Program-made: the position numbers and the translations under genes | Shown here: one piece after another, positions 838-54,905 of the stretch | Numbering within the stretch: position 1 is the first letter of the stretch | How the letters are laid out: each line of letters begins with the position of its first letter | Source of the DNA: Tupaia tana | Lineage: Eukaryota; Chordata; Mammalia; Scandentia; Tupaiidae | DNA length: 64,000 nt | Reading direction: 5' to 3' | Assembly (NCBI GenBank): GCA_026018925.1 | Contig: JAKSZU010000003.1 | Span: forward strand, 6,678,367 to 6,742,366 | Notes under the pieces: generated by a model | The model's database searches: none | What the model saw: only the letters and a program-made list of their open reading frames with translations | What the model was told of the DNA's origin: nothing

Positions 838-899
838 GCCTAGTCACAGTGATACAAGTGGGAGGTCACTCCTGCACAGTGGCTGAGGTCACATGGGAG

Positions 900-1077
900 A
901 AAAAATTAAGTAAAAGTATGCTTAATTGACAAAAATATGAGAAGCTATTTGCTGATAAAGTTATAGAGTAATATCTTTGGCTTGACTGACATGCATAGTA
1001 TTTGTGCTGGAAAAAGAAATATTGTACACTATATAGATGTGATTAAATGTAAATAAATTAATTAACTTGAAAAATTT
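900..1077 (+). mobile_element. L1 3'-end tail (lineage L1)
   Basis: The segment ends in 'gattaaatgtaaataaatta', the same 3' terminus seen for L1 tails near 13.0, 24.7, 25.7 and 54.9 kb. It holds tgactgacatgcat (983-996), which recurs exactly in the tail of the composite retroposon at 47.06 kb. It is a heavily 5'-truncated insertion. Confidence 0.7.
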
Positions 1078-1224
1078 TAAAAAGTGTTCCCACTTTTTCT
1101 GGTAGAAGTTAAGTTTTGGGAAGGCTTTACTCTGTCATTCTGATATGACCTCATGATTATATTGAAGCCTTATAAATAAAATTTTGCTTGCAATGTGAGG
1201 AATAATTAGAAGGAAGGAAGACTT

Positions 1225-23861: not shown

Positions 23862-24725
23862 TACATGGGAAACACTTGAAGACATAGAAGTAGACAAAAA
23901 TTTCTTAAGTAAGACCCCTAAAGCATAGGTAATAATCCCAAAAATAGGCAAGTGGAATTACATCAAGCTAAAAACTTCTGCACAGCAAAGGAAACAATAA
24001 TTAGAGTGAAAAGAAAATCCTCAAAATGGGAAAAAAATTTTGCACAATATGCTTTCAATAAGGAATTGATATTCAGAATATATAGAGAATTGAAGCAGCT
24101 CACCCACAAAAAAAATAATAATAACAATCCAATTAGAAAATGGGTCAAATGAACTTAGACAGCTTAGACAGTTCTCTAAGGCAGGCATACAAATTTACAA
24201 AATGAATATGAAAAAATGTTCAATATCTCTTTTCATAAGAGAAATGCAAATCAAAACCACAAGGAGGAATCATTTCACCCTAATAAGAATGGCTTTGATC
24301 AAGAAAATAAAGATATATATTCAATGACTGCAGTAGGATATGTAGCCACAGCTAGGTGCTACTTTATAGGATGCGTAAAGTAAGACTTGTGTTCATGGAA
24401 ATGTGGGTATCACCTGTGTTTACTATGAGGGTATTTGGATTGATTAGGGTCTTTGGCGTTACAATAAAATGTGAGGAGAAAACAGTATAGAAAGCAAACA
24501 TAGATACCAGAGACTGTGGGAGGAGAGTGGGAGATGGCAGAGGGTAAGAGATAGAGAATCTAGGATGGGGGGAAAAAAGCAAAACATACAGAAGACAAGA
24601 AATGGAAGATCATTTGCTGACAATAACATGCTTGTTGATGTGCTTGATTGAGACAATATATAGTGTAATTTGGATGGAAAATCTCATTTTGTATGCTGTA
24701 ATGATGTTCAGAGAATGAATGCAAA

Positions 24726-45340: not shown

Positions 45341-45704
45341 TTTTTCTTTTTCTTTTTTGGAGAGATTTCTGCTATAGGGCACGTGCACTCGCCAGACAGA
45401 CAGAGAGAGACATTAGAGACAGAAAGCGAGAAATCACCCCCCGGGGGGATGGTCACGCCACAATCCCTTCTCCTCCATTCTCCTCTCGGGATCTTGGGCA
45501 CGCACGCACACGCGCCCGGCGTGAGTTGTAAGCCACCGGGTCCGAGACGCGAACCGCGGTCGACTACATGGGAGTCCAGCGACATAGCCATTACGCTAAC
45601 TGCTGGTTCCCCCGGCGTGAGTTTTAAGCCACCGGGTCCGGGATGTGAACCGCGGTCGACTACGTGGGAGTCCAGTGACATAGCCATTACGCTAACTGCT
45701 GGTT
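45341..45704 (-). mobile_element. Head-duplicated (dimeric) SINE, family A
   Basis: Antisense. A complete family A copy (45,341 to about 45,605) is followed by a second copy of only the first 90 or so bases, from the head to ccggcg (about 45,609-45,704). In sense order this is head, then full SINE. One 13-bp duplication ctccccattcttc (45,328-45,340 and 45,705-45,717) flanks the whole unit, so it inserted as one RNA. Confidence 0.92.
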
Positions 45705-45717
45705 CTCCCCATTCTTC

Positions 45718-46944: not shown

Positions 46945-47615
46945 CTGGTCGGGAACAATTCTTTTTTTTTTTTTTTTTTTTTATTATCTATTTTTTTATT
47001 ACATTGAATTACATACAACTTTACAGTGTATTACATTGCTTTTTCAAAAGGGAATGCCATGCATGTCAGTCAGTACAGAGACATCAATCTCCCCGCTTCA
47101 ACATTCAATATCTTTCCTATGTTTCCCCCAATCATTATTATTATTATTCTAATTATTTTTTATGATAAACATGATTTTTTTTTCCAATTATCAGATCATA
47201 AAGTTCCCAACAATAGGAAACGTAGACTGCACTCAGGGCTGGACCAAGGGTGGGTCTCGTGCAGCCCCGCAAATGTAGGTGAATCTCCATGGAACACAGT
47301 TTCAGGAACGCGGCTCAGGAAAGCAGAGACGGCCATCAGCGGTTGCGGCACGCGGGGCAGATCCCGGCCACAGCCCGCGGGGGCAGAGCCCCGGCCACGG
47401 CACGCGGGGCAGACCCCAGCCACGGCATGCGGGGCAGAGCCCCGGCCACGGCACGCGGGGACAGAACCCGGCCACGGCACGCGGGGCAGAACCCCGGCCA
47501 CGGCACGCGGGGCAGAACCCCAGCCACGGCACGCGGGGGCAGACCCCGGCCACGGCACGCGGGGCAGAGTCCCGGCCACGGCACGCGGGGCAGAGTCTGG
47601 TCGGGAACAATTCTT
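46945..47615 (-). mobile_element. Composite retroposon: VNTR, unique segment, L1-like tail, poly(A)
   Basis: The 19-bp repeat ctggtcgggaacaattctt at 46,945-46,963 and 47,597-47,615 is a target-site duplication around a 633-bp insertion. A T run at 46,964-46,982 is the poly(A) of a minus-strand element. In sense order: nine 25-26-bp GC-rich units plus a partial tenth (47,596 to 47,347), a unique segment (47,346 to about 47,183), an A run (47,174-47,182 on this strand as T), an AT-rich part, then an L1-like 3' tail (about 47,085 to 46,984). The tail shares tgactgacatgcat with the L1 end at 983-996 and aligns over about 75 bases. No open frame of its own; presumably mobilised by L1. The plan recalls SVA and LAVA, but no part is shared with them that I can see. 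Confidence 0.88.
47347..47596 (-). repeat. 26-bp VNTR within the composite retroposon
   Basis: Nine units of 25-26 bp (plus-strand core ggcacgcggggcagaacccc followed by ggccac) and a tenth cut at 17 bp exactly where the target-site duplication begins. Units differ at a few positions (a/g/t after gggcaga; one 25-mer). Unit length is not a multiple of three, so open frames cycle and are meaningless. Confidence 0.97.
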
Positions 47616-52854: not shown

Positions 52855-53029
52855 AGCCTTCCTTGATTTTGACCACCAAAGACCCTCTGCCCAGACTTCA
52901 CCCTCCTGCTCCTCAGTCTAGCCAGGAGTCAGGTGTGCAAAGGGAGAAAAATGGTACTGTTTCCAGACTGCAGGTCGCCTACTTCTGCATTCCTCTGATT
53001 GCTCAGATTTAACTCCAAAAAATAAGAAA

Positions 53030-54905
53030 AACTTATAGTCTATCAGATGACCAGAAACCACCGCAGAGGTACAAGAAACATGAGAAACCAAGAAAATATC
53101 TCTCCTCTAATGGAAAAGAATAACTCCTCTTCCTCCACAAAGAATACAAAGGAACTCATGGAAATGTCAGATATAGAATGTTAAATATTCATAGTGACAG
53201 AGCTAACAGAGATGCAAGAGAAGAGAGGCAACAAACTCCAGAAGATAGAGGAGAAAAGAGGCACCGAGTTCCAAGAGGTGAGGAAGTTCTTGCACAATCT
53301 GAAAGAGGAGATACACACCATAAAAAGAATCGAACGAAATTGTTGGAGATGAAGGCTGTAATACAGGAAATAAAACTTCCACTGGAAATATCAAATGCAG
53401 ATTAGATCATGCAGAAGACTGAATCTCAGATGTAGAAAACAGAACCTCTGATCTAGAGAAACTCACCAAAAAGATTAAGGAAATAACTCAAAATAAATAA
53501 ATAAATAAATAAATAAGAATAGCATACAAGTAATACTAGATACCATTAAATGCCCAAACATCCAGATTGTCGGTATTCCAAAATGTGAAAAAACTAATAA
53601 GGGCTTGGATAATATATTCCATGAAATCCTGGAAGAAAACTTTCCAAACCTAGAGAGGCACTTAAATATCTAGAACCAAGAAATACAAAGGACCCCACAT
53701 AGAATCAACCAAAGATCTTCCCCAAGGTACATCATAGTCATATTGACCAAAACCACAGACAGGAAAAAGATACTAAGGTTGGCAAGAGAGAAATGTCAAG
53801 TTACCTACAAAGGATATCCCATCAGGCTAACATCAGACCTCTCATCGGAAACAATGTGAGCAAGGAAAGAACAGGAAAATTCAAAGTGTTAAGTGAAAAA
53901 CAAAAATACTATTCAACCAAGAATACTATCCCTAGCAAGATTATCTTCCATATGGGAAAAAAAGACAAGAACATTCTCAGATAAACAAAACCTGAAAGAA
54001 TATACCAACACCAGACCAGCTCTCCAAGAAGTGCTGAAGGGAGTGCTATGCCAGGAAAACTAAAGTCAGACATACAGAAATAAGAATACAAGAAACAAGC
54101 AAGAGAATGGCCAGCCTAATGGTAAGGACAAGTCCAGAGCTGAATGTTAACTTCCAGAGTTTAAATGGAAAAATCAGACCACAGTAACACTGTAAATTCA
54201 ATAGAAGAGAGATTAATTACATGAGTCAGAACTAGTGAAATAGAATTTTTTTACTTTAAACTAAAACAGTACCGATTTTCTTCAATGCTTTTATTTCCAT
54301 ATTTAAGGATTTTTTCTTCTCTTGACCTGTTGATAGGTTCATCTACCTACTATTTGAACGGAATCCTAACCTTTTACCTGGCTTTAAGTTTAAGCAAATT
54401 TCTCTTAACATTTTTTTATTTTGGTCTATTAAAATTAAAACCTTTTTGAGATTAAAAAATGCATTAAAAACATCTATTAATACCTGTTTAGTGACAGCAG
54501 TAAGCTACATAGCCCCAGCAAGGTGCTACTTTATAGTATGTTCTCTTTACTCACTGAGGTTTACACCTAAGGTCAGACATGCGTTCATAAATATGTATAT
54601 ATCAGCTGTGCTTGCTAGTGAAGGTCTTTAAATTAATTAAGATCTTTAGTGAATCAAAAAAAGGAGGGGGTATGCACATACCAGACAGTGTGGGAAAACG
54701 GCGGGAGTTGGCAGAGGATGAGAGGTAAAGAATCAAGGGGGAAAAAGCAAAATATATAAGAAACAAGAAATAGAAAATTATGTGTTGATGATAACATGTA
54801 TGGTAATATTCTTGACTGAGCCAATATATAATGTTTACTGGATGGAAAAATCTCATTTTGTATACTATATTAATGTACAGTGAATGACTGTAAAGAAATA
54901 AAGAA
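53030..54905 (+). mobile_element. Half-L1 (HAL1-type): ORF1-derived part joined to L1 3' UTR, no ORF2
   Basis: 53,030-54,115 reads as L1 ORF1-type text: 'ctagagaaactcaccaaaaa', 'agaagtgctgaagggagtgc', 'atcggaaacaatgtgagcaa', 'attcaaagtgttaagtgaaa' and 'cctagcaagattatcttcca'. ORF1p is the L1 RNA-binding chaperone. It carries many stops and an (aaat)n at 53,494-53,516. From about 54,490 the text is the lineage L1 3' UTR (agcaaggtgctactttatag, as at 24,345), ending near 54,905. No ORF2 text lies between. A dead copy of the half-L1 type, or an L1 with a large internal deletion. Confidence 0.75.

Follow-up and report, generated by a model that had tools for sequence, protein, structure and literature searches.

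Results

A VNTR-bearing insertion framed by a target-site duplication

The window, i.e., the whole 64,000-nucleotide stretch of Tupaia tana DNA that we analysed (G000:C531:6678367-6742366), holds on its minus strand a 633-bp insertion framed by an exact 19-bp duplication, CTGGTCGGGAACAATTCTT, at 46945-46963 and 47597-47615. These ends are as the preliminary description had given them, and the minus-strand poly(A), unique segment and A-rich run that it had noted are likewise all present in the window sequence. For the GC-rich 26-bp VNTR, Tandem Repeats Finder returned 9.6 units of ~26 bp each at 47346-47594. Several of the features listed below relate to HAL1 (half-L1), an L1 derivative that has ORF1 but lacks ORF2 and was reportedly described by Bao and Jurka in 2010.

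46945..46963, minus strand: target-site duplication (TSD), the copy at the 3' end of the element in its sense orientation, identical over 19 bp to 47597-47615
46964-47596, minus strand: window copy of the composite, 633 bp, 5'-truncated
46964..46983, minus strand: poly(A) tail, assigned from the sequence
46984..47133, minus strand: putative HAL1-type 3' end with AATAAA, assigned by homology to window 840-1070; boundary with the linker approximate
47134..47184, minus strand: A/T-rich linker, assigned from the sequence
47185..47345, minus strand: unique segment U, of which a 36-mer was matched genome-wide
47346..47596, minus strand: 26-bp GC-rich VNTR of 9.6 units, 5'-truncated at the insertion edge (Tandem Repeats Finder; 23 copies compared)
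47597..47615, minus strand: TSD, 5' copy in element sense, exact 19-bp match
840..1080, plus strand: 3' end of HAL1 type, matching the composite tail in kind, assigned by alignment and shuffles
24325..24721, plus strand: HAL1 3' end fragment, 68% to the HAL1 3' region 54060-54890
53020..54890, plus strand: older HAL1 related to the 5' donor of the composite, with a stop-bearing ORF1 region and without ORF2

The window also holds, at 45515-45710, a head-to-tail dimer of a 96-bp tRNA-like SINE head.

The insertion belongs to a large dispersed family

When the 633-bp insert was searched across the 2.95-Gb genome (1198 contigs), as the preliminary description had proposed, 184 matches were found and many near-full-length copies came to light: the best 40 of 2081 candidates, the window copy among them, span almost all of the insert at 97-100% identity. 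For the post-VNTR part, 19 other places among the best 40 of 1527 candidates are ~1 base in 362 off the window copy, as judged by bit score.

Whole-genome pattern counts, which allowed up to three mismatches on both strands and for which a reversed-pattern control gave 0 each time, yielded 1575 matches for a 36-mer of U, 8101 for a 38-mer of the tail, 596 for the ORF1-VNTR junction found in longer copies (see below), 2520 for the 5'UTR-ATG boundary and 4064 for an uninterrupted ORF1 across the composite breakpoint. With U matched 1575 times, the one-off L1 transduction of a minisatellite that had been offered as the alternative to a family falls away. Tail matches are ~5 times as frequent as U matches, an excess that may come from the donor family, from a further abundant family with the same 3' end or from very short insertions.

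The first 62.6 Mb of contig C111 hold 22 exact U matches, and for 21 of them an exact tail match follows at a distance of 199-212 bp; therefore, no free-standing source of U is seen in this listed part of the contig. Over the same 62.6 Mb, an exact tail occurs 0.9-2.4 kb downstream of nine of the ten exact ORF1-VNTR junctions. The Tupaia tana genome harbours considerably more than a thousand copies of the family, and many of these are young.

Complete copies extend upstream of the VNTR

We read 23 copies: L009-L028, which are best matches to the window insert and end with the window copy itself (L028), and L029-L031, which were picked by their 5' part. The complete plan consists of 113-bp monomers (3 to 6 per complete copy by anchor count), a 5'UTR, the start of ORF1, the VNTR, U, the linker, the tail and poly(A). 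Six of the 20 copies selected with the insert reach upstream of the VNTR, the other 14 being cut within it, and the preliminary description was blind to the HAL1 5'UTR and ORF1 part because the window copy is truncated. The upstream part is present in nine copies altogether (L009, L014, L018, L020, L021, L024, L029, L030 and L031), which measure 2.6-4.6 kb from the 5' end to the start of the poly(A).

These nine copies keep both VNTR ends, and their arrays span 704-2337 bp between the ORF1 part and U, lengths that are approximate since the ends were placed by a GC threshold. A variable VNTR, TSDs that differ between copies and an internal ORF1-VNTR junction found 596 times bear out the composite family that had been postulated from the window alone. 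VNTR units are mostly 25-27 bp, and the mean GC is 0.82 over the 240 bp before U. At the 5' edge, identity to L029 is 99.5% over 175 bp (8 copies), and in the last two 125-bp blocks before U it is 97.3% and 96.2% (22 and 20 copies), these 3' figures being biased upward because the selection query held the last 251 bp of the VNTR. Blocks ending 250, 500, 1000 and 1500 bp inside show 90.9%, 92.3%, 88.3% and 89.1% identity to L029 (17, 11, 7 and 5 copies, respectively). The ends of the VNTR are better kept than its middle, and conserved arrays at both VNTR ends are reported for SVA and LAVA in an excerpt of PMC4432496.

The ORF1 part corresponds to the first ~0.5 kb of HAL1 ORF1 and has a stop at codon 76 that is shared by all nine copies. 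This stop is a founder mark and leaves the composites non-coding, in keeping with the lack of coding capacity noted earlier. No ORF2 frame was found inside the three elements translated, whose long GC-rich frames are VNTR read-through. In Pfam scans, the first ORF1 piece had no match and the second had 18 matches up to E 1, all under curated cut-offs and many of them coiled-coil, while the sole miRNA match in an Rfam scan was sub-threshold and outside the element.

The 5' half has a HAL1-type parent

Within the older HAL1 of the window, the ORF1 of a young L1 aligns full length to 53047-54060, and no significant ORF2 match was found anywhere in 53020-54890. This element also displays an AAAT expansion, a long 3'UTR and poly(A). 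The ORF1 part of the composite shows 75% DNA identity to the window HAL1 over 453 bp, versus 74% to the young L1 ORF1 over 269 bp only.

The pattern that gave 4064 matches to uninterrupted ORF1 is the continuation past the composite breakpoint, as predicted from the window HAL1, and the matches listed (100 of 4064) are all exact. In L044, the sole donor match read further (from 437 bp downstream), the end of ORF1 is followed by a HAL1 3'UTR, without ORF2; the 4064 donor matches as a whole may comprise L1 as well as HAL1 copies. Co-location was scored over the range common to all three sets of sites, which holds 83 of 100 listed 5'UTR-ATG sites, 98 of 100 junctions and 52 of 100 donor sites. 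Downstream of the 83 exact 5'UTR-ATG sites, there is an exact composite junction in 45 cases (at 494-502 bp in 44 and at 792 bp in one), an exact uninterrupted ORF1 at 495-502 bp in three, and neither of them in exact form in 35. From this co-location and the 4064 uninterrupted matches, it follows that the 5' half of the composite comes from an abundant HAL1-type parent.

The tail resembles HAL1-type 3' ends

The preliminary description had aligned the tail with L1 3' ends elsewhere in the window. The 14 bases shared by 983-996 and 47059-47072 (one of them reverse-complemented) are indeed identical; the assignment to L1 needs amending, since the tail is linked by a chain of alignments to HAL1-type 3' ends rather than to the 3' end of young intact L1. 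Against window 840-1070, the tail scores 89, with a shuffle mean of 29.7 (SD 5.0, z 11.9) and 0 of 500 shuffles as high, and 840-1070 itself matches three HAL1 3' ends (z 7.6, 9.7 and 10.3). Direct comparison of the tail with the same three HAL1 3' ends is not significant (z -0.3, 1.3 and 1.8), its matches to two older L1 3'UTRs are weak (z 3.2 and 4.9), and z is 1.4 for the 3'UTR of young L1 (L040). With the reservation that the link to HAL1 ends passes through the intermediate at 840-1070, these alignments suggest that the tail is of HAL1 type; in view of the weak matches, it may alternatively derive from an old L1. The 3' end of the L044 donor differs from the composite tail, and on the listed part of C111 none of three exact donor sites has an exact tail within 5 kb.

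Young L1 was rejected as the tail donor, its 3'UTR being unlike the tail at three loci; L041 matches the tail query over 36 A-rich bases only. At L042 (400-500), a copy of the tail (91% identity over 93 bases in one alignment, 94% over 83 bp in another) stands directly after the L1 poly(A), outside its 3'UTR, an arrangement that perhaps reflects an L1 insertion into or beside another element with a composite-type tail.

Copies bear the marks of recent L1-driven integration

Of the 23 copies, 19 (all except L012, L013, L014 and L016) have an identifiable TSD of 9-21 bp, no two of them alike, and 17 of these TSDs are at least 12 bp long. The maximum among 506 mismatched 5'/3' pairs used as a control was 11 bp; the TSDs of L011 and L026, which at 9 and 10 bp are the shortest, are within the control range and therefore prove little alone. 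The TSD start is A-rich at most targets, as it is at L1 endonuclease sites. L030 was inserted inside an L1, and the empty site is intact in 7 of 7 paralogous L1s (L033-L039). A 3' transduction, AATAACATATC, is common to L024, L029 and L016. In L027, a second, different 3' transduction, CAAGTGTACCCT, stands after the tail and marks another source copy. This combination of poly(A), TSDs, truncation and transduction is typical of target-primed reverse transcription driven by L1.

Divergence of U plus tail from the consensus is 0.38% on average (range 0 to 1.4%, 23 copies), a value that underestimates the family mean because 20 of 23 copies came from best matches. Divergence being this low, the copies read are recent. 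Similarly, the best 40 of 4283 candidates for the 5' part are 96-100% identical to L024 (L024 itself included). Among the best 126 of 158,161 candidates matching the C-terminus of L1 ORF2, 24 lie in open frames of at least 1290 codons, one of which has a stop inside the match. Several of these open-frame matches score equally to the query, as expected of a very young L1. Since intact L1 ORF2s are present in the genome, mobilisation of the composite by L1 in trans is likely.

Three copies carry a leader of apparent host exons

L024 and L029 start with a CpG-rich leader that lies inside their TSDs. Matches to the L029 leader (345 bp, GC 0.68) occur at 8 places: L029 itself, part of L024 and, with 68-99% identity, six sites on contig C642. 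In L024, the 124 nt that follow the leader correspond to two separate pieces on C642, which keep their order and share a strand at three paralogs:

C642, plus strand throughout, paralog A: matches to exon 1 at 92313528-92313872, exon 2 at 92320072-92320159 and exon 3 at 92325693-92325732
C642, minus strand throughout, paralog B: matches to exon 1 at 90463115-90463459, exon 2 at 90456828-90456915 and exon 3 at 90450181-90450220
C642, plus strand throughout, paralog C: matches with exon starts at 87901988, 87914155 and 87918237, exon 1 at only 75%

L024 has exons 1, 2 and 3 in succession, and L029 has exons 1 and 3, without precisely the 89-nt exon 2. At C275:8826479-8826602, in a copy known by its coordinates only, exons 2 and 3 adjoin the 5' part of the composite. 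Some stretches of exons 2 and 3 have further matches, of 76-95%, at dispersed places. Between 87.9 and 92.3 Mb, C642 seems to hold a cluster of paralogous genes with CpG-rich first exons, and it is apparently exons of these genes that the composite carried off.

Three copies thus apparently carry host-gene exons by spliced 5' capture, where splicing is suggested by exon order, spacing and the exact one-exon difference, and the C642 exons are known from match coordinates. Damert, in 2009, is said to have described 5' transduction for SVA. It is rather unlikely that the leader exons of L024, L029 and the C275 copy stem from separate retrocopy or recombination events instead of splicing. Such events would fit the finding that no source composite lies beside the C642 exons among the best 40 of 4283 or the best 40 of 3078 candidates, but in L024 and L029 leader and composite lie within one TSD-bounded insertion, and the two copies differ by exon 2 precisely. 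Moreover, L024 is the highest-scoring match to the VNTR-to-tail stretch of L029, as one common source predicts. Spliced 5' transduction is reported for MAST2 in human SVA_F1 and for STK40 in chimpanzee in an excerpt of PMC6139936, and, according to an excerpt of PMC5753468, the reference likewise lacks the source copy for human MAST2.

Discussion

Origin and mobilisation of the composite

We consider it very probable that these elements form a non-autonomous, non-coding composite retroposon family whose origin is independent of SVA/LAVA. The founder joined a HAL1-type 5'UTR and ~0.5 kb of ORF1 to the VNTR, U and a 3' end that is apparently also of HAL1 type. In the mechanism we propose, Pol II would transcribe the element from its monomer 5'UTR, and the RNA would end at the AATAAA of the tail and serve as the template from which the ORF2 protein of an intact L1 generates insertions at new sites. 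At least one sublineage would be read from the CpG-rich promoter of a host gene on C642, carrying spliced exons.

A different reading, which we regard as very improbable, is that of a coding L1 or HAL1 subfamily with the VNTR in an untranslated region, the window copy being a truncated piece of it. The HAL1-type 5'UTR and ORF1 part of the composite would suit such a subfamily, but in all nine copies ORF1 is cut by the VNTR and stops at codon 76, and uninterrupted ORF1 belongs to a separate, larger set, i.e., the 4064 matches. In addition, the VNTR is absent from the young L1 3'UTR at three loci (L040, L041 and L042), contrary to the VNTR-bearing L1 3'UTR that the preliminary description had considered.

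Still less probable is a true relative of SVA/LAVA that shares ancestry with the hominoid VNTR composites. The plan is the same, with a 5' module, a VNTR with better-kept ends and a 3' retroelement module, and poly(A), TSD and exon capture occur in both. In this respect the element is SVA/LAVA-like, as first proposed, but the likeness stops at the SVA modules tested, the CCCTCT hexamer array and Alu/7SL, neither of which was found. The nine copies contain single hexamers and no run of two or more, although an array may have been lost from all nine, and L024, L029, L030 and L031 have no 7SL/Alu (SRP) match in Rfam up to E 0.1, a search that a short divergent Alu could escape. The repeat units are of 25-27 bp, not 35-50 bp, and HAL1-type parts are present instead. 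As for a single 3' transduction of a minisatellite that already existed, or a minisatellite spread by segmental duplication, the copy-to-copy variation in VNTR length is minisatellite-like, but hundreds of matches to one internal junction, TSDs that differ in the copies read and, for L030, an empty site in paralogous L1s make it scarcely credible.

Our preferred reading remains an independent, HAL1-built family, and we find it fairly probable that VNTR composites are convergent: one would have arisen here apart from hominoids, been recently mobile and repeated the SVA_F1 step, the VNTR itself being advantageous for an RNA mobilised by L1 in trans. A second independent origin would turn a single historical case into comparable cases. 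Traits shared with SVA/LAVA are a GC-rich VNTR with kept ends, poly(A) and exon capture; Alu and the hexamer are not shared, and comparison of the origins makes the role of the VNTR in trans-mobilisation testable. In this genome, promoters, splice sites and variable GC-rich repeats would have a young source in the composite.

Comparison with known systems

SVA (SINE-R/VNTR/Alu) of great apes and humans and the composite are both non-coding; they have in common a GC-rich VNTR in the centre, variable in length and with better-kept ends, poly(A), L1-type TSDs and transductions, and in one sublineage of each a host first exon has apparently been spliced on (MAST2 in SVA_F1). The likeness to SVA/LAVA is that of a non-coding RNA made of retroelement modules around a GC-rich VNTR and moved by the machinery of another element. 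SVA is set apart by its hexamer, its Alu/7SL part and its unit size: it has the CCCTCT hexamer and an Alu-like region where the composite has a HAL1-type 5'UTR and ORF1 piece, a SINE-R (HERV-K10-derived) 3' part where the composite has a probable HAL1-type 3' end, and VNTR units of 35-50 bp (from an excerpt of PMC5753468) versus 25-27 bp.

LAVA of gibbons is likewise a non-autonomous VNTR composite that includes L1-derived sequence. However, LAVA is L1-Alu-VNTR-Alu, whereas the composite has no Alu/7SL match at four loci, and its L1-derived parts are a HAL1-type 5'UTR and ORF1 upstream of the VNTR and a putative HAL1-type 3' end.

With HAL1, the composite shares the 5'UTR, the start of ORF1 and, by the chain of alignments described above, probably the 3' end. 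Unlike in HAL1, its ORF1 is cut after ~0.5 kb and stopped, and the second half is replaced by the VNTR and U; the composite is not a HAL1 because ORF1 is destroyed.

SVA_F1 (MAST2 exon 1) and pt_SVA_D6 of the chimpanzee (STK40 exon 1) offer the closest parallel to the leaders, a GC-rich host first exon having been joined, most simply by splicing. Here, by comparison, three copies are known, the exons involved (1 and 3, with 2 optional) are those of an apparent gene cluster, and the recipient is a HAL1-VNTR element.

VNTR composites (SVA, LAVA, PVA and FVA) are described as hominoid-specific in an excerpt of PMC4432496, as are SVA and LAVA in an excerpt of PMC7353768. The titles and abstract openings of the open-access papers listed mention no VNTR composite from beyond the hominoids; the composite could exist as a Repbase entry or as an unpublished one. 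A variable central GC-rich VNTR between retroelement modules, the lack of coding capacity, and dispersed copies with poly(A) and TSDs are all found here, and the composite is best filed as an independently evolved variant of the VNTR composite retrotransposons.
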